Positions 5,466 to 18,787 of a stretch of 20,402 bases of DNA are shown one piece after another (position 1 is the first letter of the stretch; every line of letters starts with the position of its first letter). The position numbers were made by a program, and so were the translations under genes. The notes under the pieces were generated by a model. That model had not been told where the DNA came from and did not search any database. It saw only the letters and a list, made by a program, of their open reading frames with translations. Origin of the DNA: a virus. Location: the IMG/VR virus record IMGVR_UViG_3300017917_001523, positions 1 to 20,402 of that record, one strand, 5' to 3'.

Positions 5466-5720
5466 TTATTCAAAGTCAAATACGTTAAAAGGATTTAGTC
5501 CAGACTCTATGCATTCTTTAAGAAGCATGAGTGTGTCTAGGAAATTATCCTCATCTGGTGGAGCAAGCACAACAGCTTCTGTAGCTGTGCCTTCTATGAC
5601 CCACTTTACAACTTCGTTCTTGTTATCTAGGACAAGAAGAGCATCTGTACCTACCGCTATACGATAGATGTACTCGTTTTCAAAAACATCGGTAACAGGT
5701 TTGGTATACGTTTGTACCAT
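5466..5720 (-). CDS. Hypothetical protein
   Basis: This 84-residue protein is unrecognised. A beta-rich first half (YIYRIAVGTDALLVLDNKNEVVKWVIEG) is followed by an acidic helix (PPDEDNFLDTLMLLKECIESG) and a hydrophobic end (NPFNVFDFE). It is the first gene after the large gene-free structured segment on the leftward strand and is followed by the MazG-like gene with almost no gap, so the two are probably co-transcribed. The ATG has an AATCTAATCC leader. Role unknown. Confidence 0.7.
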   Translation of the reverse strand: MVQTYTKPVTDVFENEYIYRIAVGTDALLVLDNKNEVVKWVIEGTATEAVVLAPPDEDNFLDTLMLLKECIESGLNPFNVFDFE

Positions 5721-5743: not shown

Positions 5744-6690
5744 CAAAATAAAATGGGCCGGTGGATATATCACCGTGATTCCCTTTAGTTTCTTAGCTTA
5801 TATATCAAGCTGTGGCCCACTCGTTAGAGCGTCTTATACCGTATGCATCCGGTTTCCCCTGTACCACTTGGGTTGCGTTAGTTTAGAAAACACACACCGC
5901 CTGTATTGTACACTACAGACATCAGACACCAGCTGCCTATCTTCTCTGATAGGAATATGCTTATGCTGGGTTCGGATTATGCCCTAGTCCTTGGTGTGTG
6001 TTAATGCCCCTCTGCACTCAGTTGTAACTCGACGTGTCTTTTTCGCACTGGTTCGGTTACAACTGCTCACCCTTGGGAAGTGAGAATGGTGCATTAACAT
6101 AAGAGTGGTTTCACTTCGCATTATATCCACTCTTATACCCCGCTTCTAGGGTAGATACAGTTAGCATCTTCAGAAGGCTCTATTTTATATTACGCTCCTA
6201 TTCCTACGATCGAAGCAACCCATTCCAGGGAACTTAAGTTGTATTTCATTAAGACAGTGTATTACAGTAGAACACTGACAGAACTAGATGGTTTCTATGG
6301 TGTACCAACAACCAGTTTATAGCCATCTTATCCGCGGCAAAACTTTGCCGGTTGTAGAAGGAATAAGAGGTTAAAGAAAGGTGGTCTGTACGACTACTGC
6401 ACACACTCACTTGATTATCAATAAGTTATAACCACATGAACTGGGTTATGACCTGGTGAAAACTTCAGATGAGCCAGCTTAAGACTCTGAAATCTGATCT
6501 TCATAGTGTTATACCATGTACGGAATAGTTCCCAGGTTCTGAATAGAAGTGATTTGGATCTTCTCACGAGGATAAAGTTTTAGGTGATGGAATAGATGTA
6601 ACCATAACAGGAAAAGAAACCGCTTCTGTTGCCAGGCTGCGGTAAGCCCCGTCTGTGAAGACAGTAAGATGCTTGTACATTCTACAGCAC
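5744..6690 (-). ncRNA. Candidate large structured non-coding RNA (~950 nt)
   Basis: No plausible gene occurs here, yet the density of possible helices is high. Examples: CACACACC/GGTGTGTG (5891-5898 with 5993-6000), TTAATGC/GCATTAA (6001-6007 with 6091-6097), GTTGTAAC/GTTACAAC (6021-6028 with 6056-6063), CTCAC/GTGAG (6066-6070 with 6080-6084), ATAAGAGTGG/CCACTCTTAT (6099-6108 with 6127-6136), TATTCC/GGAATA and CAAC/GTTG enclosing a multi-branched domain (6199-6204 with 6360-6365; 6216-6219 with 6351-6354), CAGTGT/ACACTG (6255-6260 with 6272-6277), GATGG+CTAT/ATAG+CCATC (6287-6298 with 6319-6327), CGGCAA/TTGCCG (6335-6340 with 6345-6350), GTTATAACC/GGTTATGAC (6425-6433 with 6444-6452, one G-T pair), TCAGAT/ATCTGA (6465-6470 with 6492-6497) and ACCGC/GCGGT (6619-6623 with 6639-6643). 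Genes on both sides are leftward and the left end finishes in GGCCCATTTTATTTT on the minus strand, which favours leftward transcription. Size and phage context recall the ornate RNAs ROOL and GOLLD, but I cannot show homology. Confidence 0.55.
5754..5819 (-). other. Three-way junction with complementary (kissing) hairpin loops
   Basis: TGGGCC (5754-5759) pairs with GGCCCA (5814-5819). Inside are GGTG/CACC (5760-5763 with 5771-5774) with the 7-nt loop GATATAT (5764-5770), and AGCTT/AAGCT (5795-5799 with 5807-5811) with the 7-nt loop ATATATC (5800-5806). The two loops are exact reverse complements, so a 7-bp loop-loop contact is possible. On the minus strand it is followed by ATTTTATTTT and can double as the transcript end. 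It resembles the architecture of purine riboswitches but lacks their core and has a ~20-nt linker between hairpins. Confidence 0.55.
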
Positions 6691-6714
6691 CGGTAGCATT
6701 AAATGCTACGGGTG
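6688..6714 (-). terminator. Long hairpin at the end of the gene at 6699-6941
   Basis: CACC then GTAGCATT pair with AATGCTAC then GGTG, separated by one symmetrical G-G position. The stop codon TAA sits in the loop. There is no U-tract on either strand, so it is more likely an mRNA 3' end, a processing site or the first helix of the structured RNA downstream than a classic terminator. Confidence 0.5.
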
Positions 6715-6941
6715 ATCTGTACTGCAGAGTTTACAAACCAATAGGTGCCGGCTAAAGACTCGCCTGTAGCAGTCTTCAGATCATCAGCAGCTTTAGTTAC
6801 GTACACCTGCTTGTCCCAGTTAATGGTCTTAGCAGCAAACACTGGTCCGATAGGAGTATCTGCATACTCACGGCCTTTGCCTTTCAGTACGTCAATCTTG
6901 GTTAAACCACAAGCTTCTTTGAACATCTGTAATGTCATCAT
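6699..6941 (-). CDS. Small hypothetical phage protein
   Basis: From ATG at 6941 the 80-residue protein begins MMTLQMFKEACGLTKIDVLK and continues KGREYADTPIGPVFAAKTINWDKQVYVTKAADDL, ending TYWFVNSAVQI. It looks like a small soluble beta-rich domain; similar small proteins are familiar from Bacteroidetes phages but carry no function that I know. The frame is open up to 7016, but the extension (WVPTTQQLPGLLVGDIAPF) lies in the control region and contains one of its G-tract repeats, so the inner start is preferred; ATG at 6938 is equally possible. It is the first leftward gene after the divergent region and ends in a hairpin before the structured RNA candidate. Confidence 0.65.
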   Translation of the reverse strand: MMTLQMFKEACGLTKIDVLKGKGREYADTPIGPVFAAKTINWDKQVYVTKAADDLKTATGESLAGTYWFVNSAVQITRSI

Positions 6942-7359
6942 ATGTTTAAGTATTATAAAGGGGGCAATATCGCCTACAAGTAAGCCGGGGAGCTGTTGGG
7001 TAGTAGGCACCCACATCCTCCTATATACTATTCTTCCAACACCGTTTTAAGCCGGGGGGCTATAAATAAGCTTACATTACACCGGGGGCTAGTTGAGTCA
7101 GATGTAACCCCGGGGGTAGTTACCATTTGGTAACTAGGTAACTAATAAAACTAATATGAGCCCTTGGGGGTAAAAGGGCTAAAAAGGGGTTACTACCTTG
7201 TAACCAACTCACCGTAGGAAATTATATGTAGGTCATATAGCTGAAATGCCATATGAATACACTACTAAGTAACCTGCTCACCTGAACATAATTAAGTCAT
7301 TAGGAATTAAAGCTGTTTGGTATGGATGGTATTTTTTTGCACCCTTTAGTAGCAGCACT
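6942..7359. promoter_or_regulatory. Divergent control region with G-tract repeats
   Basis: This 418-nt gene-free region separates leftward and rightward genes. It carries a repeated motif near TAAGCCGGGGGGCTA: TAAGCCGGGGAGCT (6981-6994), TAAGCCGGGGGGCTA (7048-7062), ACCGGGGGCTAG (7081-7092), CCCCGGGGGTAG (7108-7119) and CTTGGGGGTAA (7163-7173). AGCCCTT/AAGGGCT (around 7159-7180) and GTTACCatttGGTAAC (7119-7134) can form hairpins. No full Bacteroidetes promoter was found; TATTTTTTTG (7330-7339) is a possible -7 element for the rightward gene. The repeats could be operators, for instance for the HxlR-type protein encoded next door. Confidence 0.5.
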
Positions 7360-10495: not shown

Positions 10496-11267
10496 TTGGT
10501 TAAGTGTAACGTCATTCATTTCTCAGTTCAAACAACCGTTTGATGCAGATACTATTTCTGTAAAGAGTTCCAAGAACAAGAAGAGTAAATGGTACGGGAT
10601 GACCCCGGAGGAAATTAAAGAAGCCTGGAGAGCAGAAGCTAACCGGGCTACAAGTCTTGGTACCTGGTATCACAACTGCAGGGAAAGAGACATATGTGAA
10701 CTGGAAACCATGGAGCGTCATGGCTTCACTGTACCTGTTTTTAAACCGATAGAAAAGAACGGTGTGAAACTTTCTCCCAATCAGAAACTTAAAGATGGTG
10801 TCTATCCTGAACACATGGTCTATCTGAAGTCTGCCGGCCTATGTGGGCAGTCAGATCTGGTAGAGGTGATAGACGGTCATGTTCATATAACCGACTATAA
10901 GACCAATAAAGAAATCAAGACAGAGGGATATACTAATTGGGAGGGTATTACACAGAAGATGTCTGCTCCTGTGCAGCATCTGGATGATTGTAACCTGAAT
11001 CATTATGCTTTACAGCTGAGCCTGTACATGTTCATCATCCTTAAACATAATCCAAGACTTAAACCAGGTACGCTGACCATTCATCACATACAGTTTGAAA
11101 CAGTGGGAGAGGACAAGTTTGGTAATCCCATCACTGCCTTGGATAGTAACGGAGATCCCATTGTAAAAGATATAGTGCCTTACGAGTTACCGTATTTAAA
11201 GCAAGAAGTGATCTCATGCTTGCATTGGCTGGAGGACAACAGGTCTAAGCTAAAACCAAAACACTAA
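10434..11267 (+). CDS. PD-(D/E)XK nuclease of the RecB/Cas4-like type
   Basis: From ATG at 10434 the protein has 277 residues. The motifs are in order: GTWYH (76-80), as in the 'G-x-x-x-H' motif of RecB-type nucleases; PEHMV (125-129) with E126; GQSDLVEV (138-145) with D141; and HITDYKTNK (151-159) giving D154 and K156. These fit the D...(D/E)-x-K metal centre. A C-terminal helix with HYALQLSLYMFI resembles the 'Q-x-x-x-Y' motif of the family. Likely an exonuclease or end-processing nuclease in recombination or replication. It lies directly upstream of the PhoH-like gene, with one-base stop/start overlap. Confidence 0.8.
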   Translation: MILTFTPQHHKYSSIEPDGIDWLSVTSFISQFKQPFDADTISVKSSKNKKSKWYGMTPEEIKEAWRAEANRATSLGTWYHNCRERDICELETMERHGFTVPVFKPIEKNGVKLSPNQKLKDGVYPEHMVYLKSAGLCGQSDLVEVIDGHVHITDYKTNKEIKTEGYTNWEGITQKMSAPVQHLDDCNLNHYALQLSLYMFIILKHNPRLKPGTLTIHHIQFETVGEDKFGNPITALDSNGDPIVKDIVPYELPYLKQEVISCLHWLEDNRSKLKPKH

Positions 11268-11914
11268 TGAAAGAACCAAATAGAGTTAGGAAAAACGATA
11301 TAAAGTTTAGTGTACAGCTCAATGATGAGCAAAAGGAAGCTAAACAGCTGATCAGGGAAAACCAGGTGGTCATCATTACAGGAAGAGCAGGTTGCGGTAA
11401 GAGTTTAGTATCTGCCCAGGCTGCTATGGATTTTCTCTCTCAGAAAATGATAGACGAGATCCTGGTGACCAGGGCTACGATAGAGGTGGGTAATTCTCTT
11501 GGACTTCTTCCCGGGACATTGGATGAGAAATTCAATCCCTATCTGGAAGCATTCATAGAGAACCTGGAAAAACTTGCTGATAAGAAGAAGATAGCCGAAC
11601 TGGTTAGTGAGAAAAAGATAGTGGCTATGCCGGTACAGTTTATACGTGGTAAAACCATAGACGATGTTCTTGTTGTAGAGGAGGCACAGAATCTGACCAA
11701 GGCTCAGATGCTTGCTATACTTACGAGATTGGGAAAGACCGGGAAGATCATCATCAACGGAGATAATGAGCAGAAGGATATTAAAGATGAGTTTAATGGG
11801 TTGTCATATGCCATAGAGCTGAGTAAGAAGATCCCTGACATCAAGTGGATTAAGTTAAAAGAGAACCACCGCTCAGACTTAGTAGGTAAAATATTAGAGT
11901 ACGAGTATAAATGA
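11267..11914 (+). CDS. PhoH-like P-loop ATPase
   Basis: The 215-residue protein has Walker A TGRAGCGKS (38-46) and Walker B DDVLVVEEAQNL (132-143). The PhoH-specific stretches VTRATIEVG and LGLLPGTLDEKFNPYL (78-93) lie between, and a sensor-like IIINGDNEQKDI (161-172) follows. The C-terminus (LKENHRSDLVGKILEYEYK) also fits: 'L-x-x-x-H-R-S' is conserved in PhoH. Note E-E-A-Q in place of D-E-A-Q. PhoH proteins are ATPases with RNA helicase or RNase-linked roles, very common in phages. It is tightly coupled to the nuclease gene upstream and the transferase-like gene downstream (4-nt overlap). Confidence 0.85.
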   Translation: MKEPNRVRKNDIKFSVQLNDEQKEAKQLIRENQVVIITGRAGCGKSLVSAQAAMDFLSQKMIDEILVTRATIEVGNSLGLLPGTLDEKFNPYLEAFIENLEKLADKKKIAELVSEKKIVAMPVQFIRGKTIDDVLVVEEAQNLTKAQMLAILTRLGKTGKIIINGDNEQKDIKDEFNGLSYAIELSKKIPDIKWIKLKENHRSDLVGKILEYEYK

Positions 11915-13510: not shown

Positions 13511-15703
13511 GTGTACACCGAGATCCCTACCTATGATAACGGTCAATGGACCGTAACCACCTTTTATTCCCGGGAAGAGTTTAAAGAGTTTGTACTCTCC
13601 TGTTTTAAAGAACCTGGTAAGTATCAGTTCAATGAAACGGCTTTCCTGTTTAATGCTGAAGGACGTAAGTTTCAGCAGCAGGGATTCTATTGTGCTGCCC
13701 CTATAAAGACCAAAGACTTTATTAACTACTGGGATGACCAGAAGAATAAATGTCGTAAAGGGGTCATTTATAAAGACGGTGATCAAAGATGGTATGTCAC
13801 ACGGGACTATTACATGTGGCTGAACTTTCTTCCTATATATGATAAGGAAGAGAAACGGTTTGATTTTGCCAAGGTGAGGGATGCCCAGTATCACATGGCT
13901 CTCTATGAATGCCTGGCTGAGCTACACTACAAGCACAGTGCCATCCTAAAGAAACGTCAGATTGCATCTTCTTATTTCCACGCAGCCAAGCTGATCAACA
14001 TGTGGGTGTTTGAAGATGGTGCTGTACTTAAGATGGGTGCTTCTTTGAAAGACTACATATCTGAAAAGGGTACATGGAGGATGTTAACAGAGTATCGTAC
14101 GTTCTTAAATGAACACACTGCCTGGTACCGTCCTTCTGATCCGGATAAGATATTTTCCTGGCAGCAGCGTATTAAGGTGCGTATTGGAGGCCGGGATACA
14201 TTCAAGGGAAACAAGTCCATCATTACAGGTACATCTTTTGAGAAAGATCCTACCAATGGTGTCGGTGGTCCTTGTACGTATTTCTTCCATGAGGAGGCCG
14301 GTATTGCTCCTAAGATGGACATGACCTACGAGTATATGCGTCCTGCCATGCAGTCTGGTATGGTGACCACAGGTATGTTCATAGCCGCGGGATCTGTTGG
14401 TGACCTAGATCAGTGTGAACCCCTTAAGTTGATGATTCTTCAACCGGATGGTAATGACATCTACGCGGTGGAGTCTAATCTGATAGACGCAGATGGTACC
14501 ATTGGACGCACCGGATTATTTATTCCGGAACAGTGGAGTATGCCTCCGTACATAGATGAGTTTGGTAATTCCCTGGTAGAGGAAGCCCTGGCTGCTATTG
14601 TAGAAGAACGCATCCGTTGGAAGCGTGACCTCACCCCGGAACAATACCAACTTCGTATATCCCAAAAGCCCACTAACATAGAAGAAGCTTTTGCTACGCG
14701 TAAGGCTTCTGTTTTTCCTCCCCACCTGGTGTCTAAGCAGATCCAGCGTATCCAGGATAAAGAGTATCCAGTGGAATACCTGGAGCTAAGTCGTAATGCA
14801 GAAGGAAAGATTGTAGATAAGCCTAGTAGGAAGATCCCCATCATGGAGTTTCCCATCTCTAAAAAGACCGAAGATAAGGAGGGAGTTATCTGTGTGTACG
14901 AGAGACCGATAAAAGATCCTCCGTTTGGAACCTACTACGCCTCCGTGGATCCTGTAGGAGAGGGAAAGACCACCACCTCAGAATCTCTTTGTTCCATCTA
15001 CATCTATAAGAATCCCGTAGAGGTGATCAAGGATGATGGGAACGGTAAGGTGAGCAACACCATAGAACGCGATAAGATCGTGGCTTCCTGGTGTGGCAGG
15101 TTTGATGACCTGAATAAGACCCACGAACGCCTGGAGCTGATGATTGAATGGTATAATGCCTGGACCGTGGTGGAAAACAACGTAGCCCTGTTCATTCAGT
15201 ATATGATCAGCCGTAAGAAACAACGCTACCTGGTGCCCAAGGATATGCTTTTGTTCCTAAAAGACATTGGAGCCAACCGGAATGTGTTCCAGGAATACGG
15301 CTGGAAGAACGTGGGCACTCTCTTTAAAGGAACCATCTTGTCTTACGGTATAGAATTCCTTAAAGAAGAGCTGGATCACGAGACCAAACCGGATGGAGAG
15401 ATCGTAAAAACCATCTATGGTGTGGAGCGGATCCCGGACATCATGCTCTTAAAAGAAATGCAAGCTTACCGGGATGGACTCAACGTGGATAGACTGGTAG
15501 CTTTCTGTGCTTTGGTAGCCTTTGCCAAGGTGCAGCAATCTAATAGAGGTTTGGCTAAACGTGTAGAAGTTAGTCAGGAAAAGTTGGATAACTCCCAAAA
15601 ATTTAGTAAATTAAATTGGGGACCTTTTAGACATATGGGGTCTTCTAGAGGGAGTTCTACAGGTATGAGACCGCCCAGAAACCCCTTTAAAAATATCAGA
15701 TAA
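13511..15703 (+). CDS. terL: Terminase large subunit (crAss-like type)
   Basis: The 730-residue protein packages DNA into the prohead. The ATPase half shows ILKKRQIASSYFH (145-157) at the Walker A position; instead of GxxxxGKS it has K-R-Q-I-A-S-S, a deviant loop known from large terminases. CTYFFHEEA (255-263) is Walker B with the catalytic Glu pair, followed by GIAPKMDMTYEYMRPAM and FIAAGSVGDLDQCEP (coupling motif). The nuclease half has YYASVDPVGEGKTTTSES (475-492; D480), WTVVENN (551-557; E555) and a late Asp (DGLNVDRLVAF). The phrases 'MGASLKDYISEKGTW', 'DPTNGVGGPCTYFFHEEAGI' are those of crAss-like terminases. The start is GTG, four nt after the previous stop. The end overlaps the next start by one base. 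Confidence 0.92.
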   Translation: MYTEIPTYDNGQWTVTTFYSREEFKEFVLSCFKEPGKYQFNETAFLFNAEGRKFQQQGFYCAAPIKTKDFINYWDDQKNKCRKGVIYKDGDQRWYVTRDYYMWLNFLPIYDKEEKRFDFAKVRDAQYHMALYECLAELHYKHSAILKKRQIASSYFHAAKLINMWVFEDGAVLKMGASLKDYISEKGTWRMLTEYRTFLNEHTAWYRPSDPDKIFSWQQRIKVRIGGRDTFKGNKSIITGTSFEKDPTNGVGGPCTYFFHEEAGIAPKMDMTYEYMRPAMQSGMVTTGMFIAAGSVGDLDQCEPLKLMILQPDGNDIYAVESNLIDADGTIGRTGLFIPEQWSMPPYIDEFGNSLVEEALAAIVEERIRWKRDLTPEQYQLRISQKPTNIEEAFATRKASVFPPHLVSKQIQRIQDKEYPVEYLELSRNAEGKIVDKPSRKIPIMEFPISKKTEDKEGVICVYERPIKDPPFGTYYASVDPVGEGKTTTSESLCSIYIYKNPVEVIKDDGNGKVSNTIERDKIVASWCGRFDDLNKTHERLELMIEWYNAWTVVENNVALFIQYMISRKKQRYLVPKDMLLFLKDIGANRNVFQEYGWKNVGTLFKGTILSYGIEFLKEELDHETKPDGEIVKTIYGVERIPDIMLLKEMQAYRDGLNVDRLVAFCALVAFAKVQQSNRGLAKRVEVSQEKLDNSQKFSKLNWGPFRHMGSSRGSSTGMRPPRNPFKNIR

Positions 15704-15977: not shown

Positions 15978-18716
15978 ATGCAGATATATAACGCTCTAGA
16001 CCTAAAAGCTGGTAAGAAAGTGGAGTATAACAAAATGGGCGTTTTAACGCAACCAGTCCAGTTTTTACCTGAGAAGGAAAAAGATGAAGAATGGAGGGCG
16101 TGGAACCTTGACTGGCTGGAGTTTCAAGGGATGAAACAGCTTAGGCGTAATGCACGCAGGCTGATGAAAAACTACAAGCTGGCCAAAGGTATTATAGATA
16201 AGTCCGACTACATTGTAGAAGAGGATAACGAGATGGCTGACCTGATTGAAACCCTTACTAAAGAGGATGAGTCAGCTTTAGAACTTAAGTTTTATCCCAT
16301 CATTCCTAATGTCATAAATGTTCTGACGAACGAGTTTTCTAAACGTTCATCCCGGATCATGTTCCGTGCGGTGGATGACATTTCCTACAACGAAATGTTG
16401 GATGCTAAACGTCAAATGCTGGAAGATGTACTTCTTCAGCAGGCTCAGATGAAGATGATGACTAAGATGATGGCTCAGGGTATGGAGATGGAAGAAGAGG
16501 AAGTGCAGCAAATGATGAGCCCTGAAAACCTTAAAACTCTTCCTGAGATTGAGGAATTCTTTAGAAAAGACTATAGATCCCTGATTGAAGAATGGGCTAC
16601 CCATCAGATGAGCGTAGATGAGGAACGTTTTAAGCTCCAGGAACTGGAAGAAATGGGATTCCGTGACATGCTCATTACAGACCGTGAGTTCTGGCATTTT
16701 AGGATGATGGAGGATGATTACGAGGTGGAACTATGGAACCCGTTATTGACTTTTTACCATAAAAGTCCAGATGTCCGTTACATTTCCCAGGGTAACTGGG
16801 TGGGTAAAATGGATATGATGACCGTATCGGATGTCATTGACAAGTATGGATGGATGATGAACCAGGAGCAACTAGAAGCCCTGGAAGCTATTTATCCTGT
16901 ACGCTCTGCCGGCTATGCTATCCAGGGGTACCAGAATGACGGAACATACTATGATCCTACCCGTTCACACGAGTGGAATACCCAGATGCCTTCCCTGGCT
17001 TACAGACAGTTCACTTCATTATACGATACCAGGTTTGGAACCGGGGATATCGTGGAGTGGATACTTTCTGATTCAGAAGACACGATTGACTTTGGTAAAA
17101 CCCATATGTTACGCGTATCTACCATCTACTGGAAATCCCAGCGTAAGGTGGGTCATCTTACTAAGATTACAGAAGAGGGAGAAGTGATCCAGGAAATTGT
17201 CTCTGAAGACTACAAGATCACTGAAAAACCTTTATACAACACTGCATTATACAAACAGAAGACTAAAGATAACCTTGTATTTGGTGAGCATATTGACTGG
17301 ATATGGATTAACGAAGTATGGGGTGGTGTTAAGATAGGTCCTAACAGACCTGCTTTCTGGGGTATGAACAACCCTGGTGGCATTAACCCAATCTATCTTG
17401 GTCTTAATGGGGGTAAGCCCGGACGTGTTCCTTTCCAGTTTAAAGGGGACAGCAGCCTTTATGGATGTAAACTTCCTGTAGAGGGTGCCGTGTTCGGGGA
17501 TAGAAATACCCGCAGCATCTCTTTGGTGGATCTAATGAAGCCTTACCAGATAGGTTATAATATCGTGAACAACCAGATCGCGGACATCCTGGTGGATGAA
17601 CTTGGTACGGTGATCATGCTGGACCAGAATGCTTTACCTCGTCACTCTCTCGGAGAAGACTGGGGTAAAAATAACCTGGCCAAAGCCTATGTGGCTATGA
17701 AGAACTTCCAGATGTTACCACTGGATACTTCTATTACCAATACAGAGAATGCCCTGAACTTCCAGCACTACCAGGTGCTGAACCTGGAACAGACCAACCG
17801 TCTGCTTTCCCGTATCAACCTGGCTACATATTTCAAGAACCAGGCGTTTGAAGTGATCGGACTGAACCCTCAGCGTATGGGTCAGCAGCTTTCTGTAGAG
17901 GATTCTGCAAGAAAGATAGAAGTGGCCCAGGCTGCTTCTTATGCCCAGACAGAACAGTATTTTATTCAGCATAGTGATAACCTGATGCCGCGTGTACATC
18001 AAATGCGTACAGACCTGGCTCAGTATTACCATTCTAAGAAACCGTCTATACGTCTTCAGTACATCACTGGTACGGATGAGAAGGTAAACTTTGAAATGAA
18101 CGGTACAGATCTTCTGTTAAGAGACCTGAATATCTTCTGCACTACAAAGACAAACTCTCGTGCTATTATGGAGCAGCTTAAACAGCTTGCTTTGAATAAC
18201 AACACTACAGGTGCTTCTATTTATGACCTGGGTAATGTGATCAAGTCTGAGTCTATTGCTGAGCTTACAGGTGTTCTTAAAGCTGCTGAAGAGAAGACTA
18301 ACTCTCAAAGACAGGCTGAAATGCAGCAGCAACAGGAAATGCAGCAGCAGATGCTTCAGTCTCAGGAACAGCAGAAACAAATGGAGCTTCAGTTTAGAGC
18401 TGAACAGGCAGAGTTGGATAGACAAGCCCAGATCACTGTGGCTCAGATCAGGGCTGCAGGCTATGGGTCAGCTGTAGATATCAACAAGAATGAGCAGTCA
18501 GATTACCTGGATGCCATGGAGAAGATAGAAAAGCAGCAGAACTATCAGGACACTATGAACTTCAAACGTGAGCAGGAGGTAAATAAGAACAACCAGAATG
18601 CTCAGAAGATGAATATAGAACGCGAGAAGCTACAGACTCAGCGTGAGATCGCGGAAAAGCAGCTACAGATTGCCCGCGAGAATAAGAATAAGTACGACAC
18701 TGGAAAGAAGAAATAA
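15978..18716 (+). CDS. Portal protein
   Basis: At 912 residues this is a large portal protein, of the crAss-like size class, set between terminase and scaffold/capsid genes. The first third is acidic and helical (residues 20-230, with a Met/Glu-rich stretch MKMMTKMMAQGMEMEEEEVQ). The middle includes repeated aromatic beta segments (DRNTRSISLVDLMKPYQIGYN... and PRHSLGEDWGKN) typical of the wing and stem. The last ~140 residues form a very Gln/Glu-rich coiled coil (MQQQQEMQQQMLQSQEQQKQ), then a lysine end. It forms the dodecameric DNA channel at one capsid vertex. Family assignment rests mainly on synteny, length and composition; the fold was not computed. Confidence 0.85.
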   Translation: MQIYNALDLKAGKKVEYNKMGVLTQPVQFLPEKEKDEEWRAWNLDWLEFQGMKQLRRNARRLMKNYKLAKGIIDKSDYIVEEDNEMADLIETLTKEDESALELKFYPIIPNVINVLTNEFSKRSSRIMFRAVDDISYNEMLDAKRQMLEDVLLQQAQMKMMTKMMAQGMEMEEEEVQQMMSPENLKTLPEIEEFFRKDYRSLIEEWATHQMSVDEERFKLQELEEMGFRDMLITDREFWHFRMMEDDYEVELWNPLLTFYHKSPDVRYISQGNWVGKMDMMTVSDVIDKYGWMMNQEQLEALEAIYPVRSAGYAIQGYQNDGTYYDPTRSHEWNTQMPSLAYRQFTSLYDTRFGTGDIVEWILSDSEDTIDFGKTHMLRVSTIYWKSQRKVGHLTKITEEGEVIQEIVSEDYKITEKPLYNTALYKQKTKDNLVFGEHIDWIWINEVWGGVKIGPNRPAFWGMNNPGGINPIYLGLNGGKPGRVPFQFKGDSSLYGCKLPVEGAVFGDRNTRSISLVDLMKPYQIGYNIVNNQIADILVDELGTVIMLDQNALPRHSLGEDWGKNNLAKAYVAMKNFQMLPLDTSITNTENALNFQHYQVLNLEQTNRLLSRINLATYFKNQAFEVIGLNPQRMGQQLSVEDSARKIEVAQAASYAQTEQYFIQHSDNLMPRVHQMRTDLAQYYHSKKPSIRLQYITGTDEKVNFEMNGTDLLLRDLNIFCTTKTNSRAIMEQLKQLALNNNTTGASIYDLGNVIKSESIAELTGVLKAAEEKTNSQRQAEMQQQQEMQQQMLQSQEQQKQMELQFRAEQAELDRQAQITVAQIRAAGYGSAVDINKNEQSDYLDAMEKIEKQQNYQDTMNFKREQEVNKNNQNAQKMNIEREKLQTQREIAEKQLQIARENKNKYDTGKKK

Positions 18717-18746: not shown

Positions 18747-18787
18747 TCCATACTTCAGGTCCTTCTAAGCTCTACAATATAAATTTT

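Follow-up and report, generated by a model that had tools for sequence, protein, structure and literature searches.

Exchangeable, pseudoknotted RNA domains encoded on the minus strand of a crAss-like phage contig

The stretch of DNA analyzed here (hereafter the window), a viral contig of 20.4 kb (IMG/VR record IMGVR_UViG_3300017917_001523, 20,402 nt), carries genes for a PhoH-like protein (11267–11914), a terminase (13511–15703) and a portal protein (15978–18716). In an annotated phage collection, the terminase was matched at ~22–27% identity by those of crAss-like, Flavobacterium and Cellulophaga phages, and the phage was therefore considered crAss-like in a broad sense. No match to the window was found in Rfam 15 at gathering thresholds, in line with the new RNA class suggested by an earlier reading of the letters alone (the sequence-only reading), while the tRNA-like element mentioned there was not recovered, as ARAGORN detected no tRNA in the window.

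Segment 5744–6690, previously described as a single gene-free RNA of ~950 nt, contains three things: the 3′ tail of an 81-aa gene, a 49-aa gene and the predicted RNA unit, all on the minus strand. The 81-aa gene (6699–6944), located immediately upstream, is conserved at the protein level with relatives L062 and L064, and its product had no Pfam match. The 49-aa protein-coding gene (6418–6567, GTG start) has protein homologues in three relatives (L062, L064, and L084); its presence contradicts the statement that the segment holds no credible gene and rules out one RNA spanning the whole segment. An 84-aa ORF (5466–5720, minus strand), with neither a Pfam nor a PHROG match, starts about 25 nt past the predicted 3′ end of the RNA. 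The stretch without coding evidence thus comprises 5744–6415, to which 6618–6698 is added as the 3′ element of the 81-aa gene. A coding reading of 5744–6415 was rejected, since relative L062 has an in-frame stop near promoter position 6335 and domains A, C, and F, described below, covary as RNA. Upstream of the 81-aa gene, a short noncoding region (7017–7350) harbors repeated CCGGGGG-type blocks, and one part of its leader (GGCTTAC..TAGGCGATATTGCCCCCT) shows strong conservation in L062 and L064.

Element E (6618–6678, minus strand), 3′ of the 81-aa gene, is a pseudoknot (CGGGG..ACCGC-AGCCTGGCAACAGAA-GCGGT) that is 90–93% identical to its counterparts in L062 and L064, with compensatory changes in the stem. 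The CGGGG..CCTGGCAACAGAA pseudoknot follows the tag in the tmRNAs of L053 and L043, and L062, L064, and L150 have it 3′ of genes; its stem covaries. Element E shares both the CGGGG ... CCTGGCAACAGAA pattern and the covarying stem with the alphaproteobacterial type of tmRNA pseudoknot, but it stands after an ordinary gene, without a tRNA-like part and outside the main RNA. Its identification as a tmRNA was discarded in favor of a shared pseudoknot, as ARAGORN found no tmRNA and the weak alpha_tmRNA match scored far below the cut-off. A transfer of RNA domains between tmRNA and mRNA 3′ ends is possible.

The minus strand of 5744–6700 was more stable than its shuffled versions (z = −3.5, 20 shuffles), and for 5744–6310 none of 100 shuffles was equally stable (z = −3.70); with the main helices covarying in relatives, the proposal of a large structured phage RNA was borne out, including in the shuffle test attached to it. 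Stability does not by itself decide between the strands, since the plus strand likewise gives a good fold (z = −2.9). When the pairs of domain A were written on the plus strand, 161 A.C mismatches (equivalent to G.U on the minus strand) vs. 36 G.T were counted, an asymmetry that assigns the domain A RNA to the minus strand, and the gene downstream of domain A was co-oriented with the RNA in 126 of the 142 cases having genes on both sides; both results agree with the leftward transcription previously proposed.

A motif of the form GGAT-N6-GCTATAA (GCGGATAAGATGGCTATAAACTG, 6313–6335, minus strand) resembles a −10 promoter region plus an upstream extension and is a putative promoter, with a predicted start at about 6308. 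In the fetched DNA, the pattern was matched exactly at 44 sites and its reversed version at 5; of the 44, 11 were followed within 1.5 kb by an RNA domain on the same strand, while none was preceded by such a domain or had one on the opposite strand. In L233, domain A comes directly after the motif. Just upstream of the motif in the window, and overlapping it by one base, lies a hairpin (CCGGCAAAGTTTTGCCG, 6335–6351, minus strand) that may end the upstream transcript as a terminator. At the other side, a U-run (5744–5753) closes domain F 25 nt ahead of the next ORF, and the T-rich, terminator-like stretch at 5744–5758 fits the 3′ end that had been expected near 5744. Judging from these predicted ends, one transcript of about 565 nt, running from ~6308 to the U-rich terminator at ~5745, is likely. 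The same motif, as GGAT-N6-GCTATAAT, was also observed at window position 18751 between the portal gene and the next gene, on the minus strand and thus opposite to the structural genes; it recurs at the corresponding position in many relatives and would send antisense transcripts into the portal gene, unless it marks some other feature.

The minus strand between ~6310 and 5745 encodes a structured RNA made up of a chain of separately conserved, pseudoknotted domains, arranged 5′ to 3′ in the order D, C, A, F and reused in other orders elsewhere. Domain A (6007–6097) is a pseudoknotted three-way junction supported by covariation and by a covariance model (R1), which scores the window copy at 89 bits. 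It became apparent as two islands of near-perfect identity (6008–6027 and 6057–6097) when the region was compared by BLAST with 82 relatives retrieved with neighboring proteins, and pattern scans with each island recovered at least 185 distinct copies in at least about 160 viral-contig regions. The minus-strand RNA consensus starts with UUAA-UGCAC-CAUAA-CUCAC-UUCCCAAGG-GUGAG-CAGUUGUAAUA, followed by a variable part of 9 to about 300 nt and by UAUUACAACUG-A-GUGCA-GA-GGGR. In the window (all minus strand), it consists of helices P1 (6089–6093/6013–6017) and P3 (6080–6084/6066–6070), helix P2 (6056–6065/6019–6028) topped by a variable apical hairpin, referred to as the cargo, and a pseudoknot between the P3 loop (6075–6078) and the 3′ flank (6007–6010). 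RNAalifold recovered P1, P2, and P3 unaided from an alignment of 34 copies. For the full structure, pseudoknot included, 97.3% of the cells in this alignment were paired, and double changes were seen at 13 pairs and in 58 cells, vs. 10.8 cells in shuffles; the covariation signal vanished when the pairing partners were slid. Among 134 unique copies, the pseudoknot covaries as CCC/GGG, CCA/UGG, and CAC/GUG, and P3 takes many forms (e.g., CUAGC/GCUAG, UCUAC/GUAGA). The cargo is mildly structured (mean z of −0.78 vs. −0.27 for random 70-mers) and hence gives no strong hint of function. Nucleotide searches of INPHARED with the 43-nt domain A core and with the gene-poor region yielded nothing beyond chance. 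A third type of domain A, in which the outer helix is extended and an AACC-NNNN-GGTT hairpin serves as P3 in place of the pseudoknot hairpin, was observed in RNA-sense relatives (L091 at ~424, L215 at ~1102, L227 at ~6385, L265, and L267).

Upstream of domain A in the RNA, domain C (6101–6152, minus strand) is formed by a hairpin (ACCCTAGAAGCGGGGT) followed by a stem with an internal loop (AAGAGTGG-ATATAATGCGAAGTGAAA-CCACTCTT). Its exact 18-nt core was found in 32 viral stretches, and its closing stem occurs with 14 distinct arm pairs that are 99% paired vs. 65% after shuffling. Domain D (6160–6313, minus strand), with the conserved core TTCCCTGGAAtGGGTTG ... GTAGG ... CCTTCTGA.GATGCTAA, is 70–79% identical to sequences in L053, L076, L086, L119, and L143, and variants of its stem were observed. 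The 3′ domain F (5744–5878, minus strand) consists of the hairpin CCC-AAGTGGTACA-GGG, a GTGG/CCAC pseudoknot, two variable hairpins, a 7-bp kissing loop (5800–5806 with 5764–5770) and a U-rich 3′ end. A search with its 19-nt core retrieved only five other viral stretches (L086 and L291–L294), and in three of them (L086, L291, and L294) domain F lies directly 3′ of a stop codon. In the alignment of these six sequences (A2), the hairpin (CCC-AAGUGGUACA-GGG) and the GUGG/CCAC pseudoknot are invariant, 87.6% of the pair counts are paired vs. 75.0% in shuffles, and the kissing loop is 100% paired with three double changes, reading GAUAUAU/AUAUAUC in the window, GACAUAU/AUAUGUC in three relatives and GACUAAU/AUUAGUC in two. 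The stem-loop region between A and F (5889–6002, minus strand), closed by AACACACACC/GGTGTGTGTT (5993–6002 with 5889–5898), has a fold predicted from a single sequence only and no conserved counterpart in the relatives. Thus, out of the approximately fifteen helices listed by the sequence-only reading, those corresponding to P1, P2, P3, and the pseudoknot of domain A and to domains C, D, and F stood, while others, such as AACACACACC/GGTGTGTGTT, remain single-sequence predictions.

The same domains recur in other arrangements. The order promoter-D-C-A-F of the window is replaced by F-D-A in L086, A-F-D in L293, A-D-C in L119, and B-A-B in L141, while L302 has promoter-D-C with domain A further away, and a C-like stem (M) is inserted in the P3 loop of some domain A copies. 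Module B (ACTCTCATCCAAGCAGG-[variable]-CAAGGGTTGCAACCTTGTGAGAGT), absent from the window, was observed in about 30 copies upstream or downstream of domain A (L112, L116, L117, L141, and others); the arms of B and M are too invariant or too noisy to count as covariation evidence. Among 175 domain A copies, 27 pairs from different contigs had a cargo that was 85–100% identical between unrelated 60-nt flanks on both sides, and 8 pairs shared both flanks and differed in the hairpin.

Domain A is usually present in one copy per genome. It was found in 10 of the 50 PhoH-matched relatives, a patchy distribution indicating that it is not essential in all of them, and an R1 search of the PhoH relatives devoid of it returned chance-level scores only. 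A terminase match was obtained in 33 of 36 tested carrier records, with identities to the window terminase ranging from 83% down to about 25%. The gut setting assumed by the sequence-only reading was not supported, as the close relatives found are contigs from uncultured environmental viruses, and in the eight relatives tested that were cultured or came from the gut no domain A scored above chance. Domain A was also located in two bacterial genome bins, one alphaproteobacterial (L277) and one assigned to Neisseriaceae (L278); it probably sits there on phage contigs that were binned with bacteria, in which case the bins could hint at hosts.

Hatchet ribozymes (RF02678) were found in five carriers of domain A, each roughly 1 kb 5′ of A and always on the RNA strand (L039, 5871–6012; L053 contig, 23954–24088; L084, 5635–5767; L097, 46–208; L148, 3088–3239). 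In L039, L089 (same contig as L053), L135, and L217, the hatchet starts a few nucleotides after GGAT-N6-GCTATAA, so that it shares with the window domains both its occurrence in the same RNAs of relatives and, in several cases, a position directly after the same promoter-like motif. The topology of domain A, a three-way junction with a loop-to-3′-flank pseudoknot, differs from that of the hatchet. RF02678 gave no hit in the window at gathering or E ≤ 10, and domain D was ruled out as a hatchet equivalent since L053 has both.

ROOL and GOLLD are large structured phage ncRNAs with pseudoknots, kissing loops and conserved cores joined to variable linkers or arms, and their function is unknown (PMC12286853). 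The covariance models of GOLLD, ROOL, and HEARO, families to which the sequence-only reading had looked, matched neither the window (gathering or E ≤ 10) nor any of 38 related loci (gathering). GOLLD has a universal 3′ region and a less conserved 5′ region, whereas domain F is present in five other stretches and the domain order varies; ROOL lies near tRNA islands, whereas the window has no tRNA and some relatives have scattered ones; HEARO is linked to an HNH endonuclease ORF, and no HNH was detected among the window proteins searched. As no testable defining feature of ROOL or GOLLD was found, the window RNA is not a member of either; it resembles them in being a large, ornate RNA of phages, yet consists of short reusable domains strung in a chain, with an order and a content that vary from phage to phage. 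To our knowledge, no function has been assigned to the large ornate RNAs of phages, and every class described keeps to a single fixed architecture. In flaviviral exoribonuclease-resistant RNAs, which are also built around a three-way junction, a hairpin loop pairs with the segment immediately 3′ of the closing helix. Domain A has the same loop-to-3′ pairing, but its pseudoknot hairpin is the 5′ and not the 3′ one, and the likeness is one of topology alone, with no sequence relation. In full-text searches of open-access papers, no description of crAss-like noncoding RNAs, of hatchet ribozymes in phages or of modular phage RNAs was encountered.

One far-reaching reading is that of a domain-shuffling RNA system, in which a shared pseudoknotted repertoire is arranged in many orders behind phage promoters and a hypervariable hairpin cassette within domain A is recombined between otherwise unrelated phages at conserved helices, in the manner of protein modules, perhaps evading or engaging host factors; we consider this close to an even call, though not quite reaching one. 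As a mechanism, we tentatively prefer that the domains shape and protect RNA ends, acting as folded, nuclease-resistant end and junction elements. The 5′ elements would lie at transcript starts or close to them, as the hatchet does in some relatives, where it immediately follows the promoter, and as domain A does in other cases. The 3′ elements, E and F (the latter with its kissing loop), would lie behind stop codons or ahead of U-runs. Strung together, the domains would yield an RNA that is compact and persists during infection, or transcript ends that persist; the helices conserved in domain A may provide the short homologies where phages swap the variable hairpin. The protective role is suggested by the positions of single domains, i.e., the hatchet at the presumed start, A before start codons, and F or E after stops. 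Against it count the domains located far from transcript ends, the fact that only 11 of 44 promoter motifs precede known domains, the patchy distribution of domain A, and the lack of resemblance by sequence between any domain and a proven protective element.

A trans-acting ornate RNA in the manner of ROOL and GOLLD, which would self-assemble or bind host factors through kissing loops and pseudoknots as contacts and swapped hairpins as variable outward arms, is a serious rival but in our view unlikely. It would account for a unit that stands by itself, has promoter-like and terminator-like ends and no ORF, and is rich in pseudoknots, with a kissing loop that covaries. It would also account for the variable linker or arm that separates conserved cores, a trait described in ROOL and GOLLD (PMC12286853), but there is no universal full-length architecture, the changing domain order and content are hard to fit to one cage-like assembly, and several domains also stand alone beside genes. 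A rival just as serious, and just as unlikely, is a cluster of cis-acting mRNA leaders or trailers, regulatory or self-cleaving, in which domain A could be a new ribozyme or a ligand-binding leader. Domain A precedes an ATG ORF by 30–40 nt in 24 of 166 cases, and both the co-orientation of the downstream genes and the hatchet ribozymes within the same RNAs point the same way; however, these genes are diverse (the largest cluster comprises 13 of 166), which does not resemble a riboswitch, and the window unit looks insulated by the terminator-like hairpin that precedes its promoter and by the U-rich end lying ahead of the following gene. Mobile or recombination elements acting at the DNA level, whose inverted repeats would mimic RNA structure, with the arms as recombinase sites and the cargo as the exchanged cassette, could produce the exchange between unrelated flanks and the patchy distribution, but this is very improbable and largely refuted by the GU asymmetry, which, like the consistent gene orientation, denotes selection on RNA; moreover, the pseudoknot is not a simple inverted repeat and no recombinase was found among the neighboring window proteins searched. 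That the RNA is a divergent GOLLD, ROOL, HEARO, or tmRNA is hardly credible, since, despite a similar setting and size and the CCTGGCAACAGAA that element E has in common with tmRNA, the family models gave no gathering-level match in the window, those of ROOL, GOLLD, and HEARO none in the 38 related loci, and element E lies outside the main RNA.

What the exchangeable domains form is a structured RNA family that is visibly modular, its domains standing alone beside genes as well as strung together, and each domain can consequently be tested by itself. Within this family, RNA domains are reordered and a cassette is exchanged between diverse phages, and a new pseudoknotted junction is linked to hatchet ribozymes and tmRNA-like pseudoknots.
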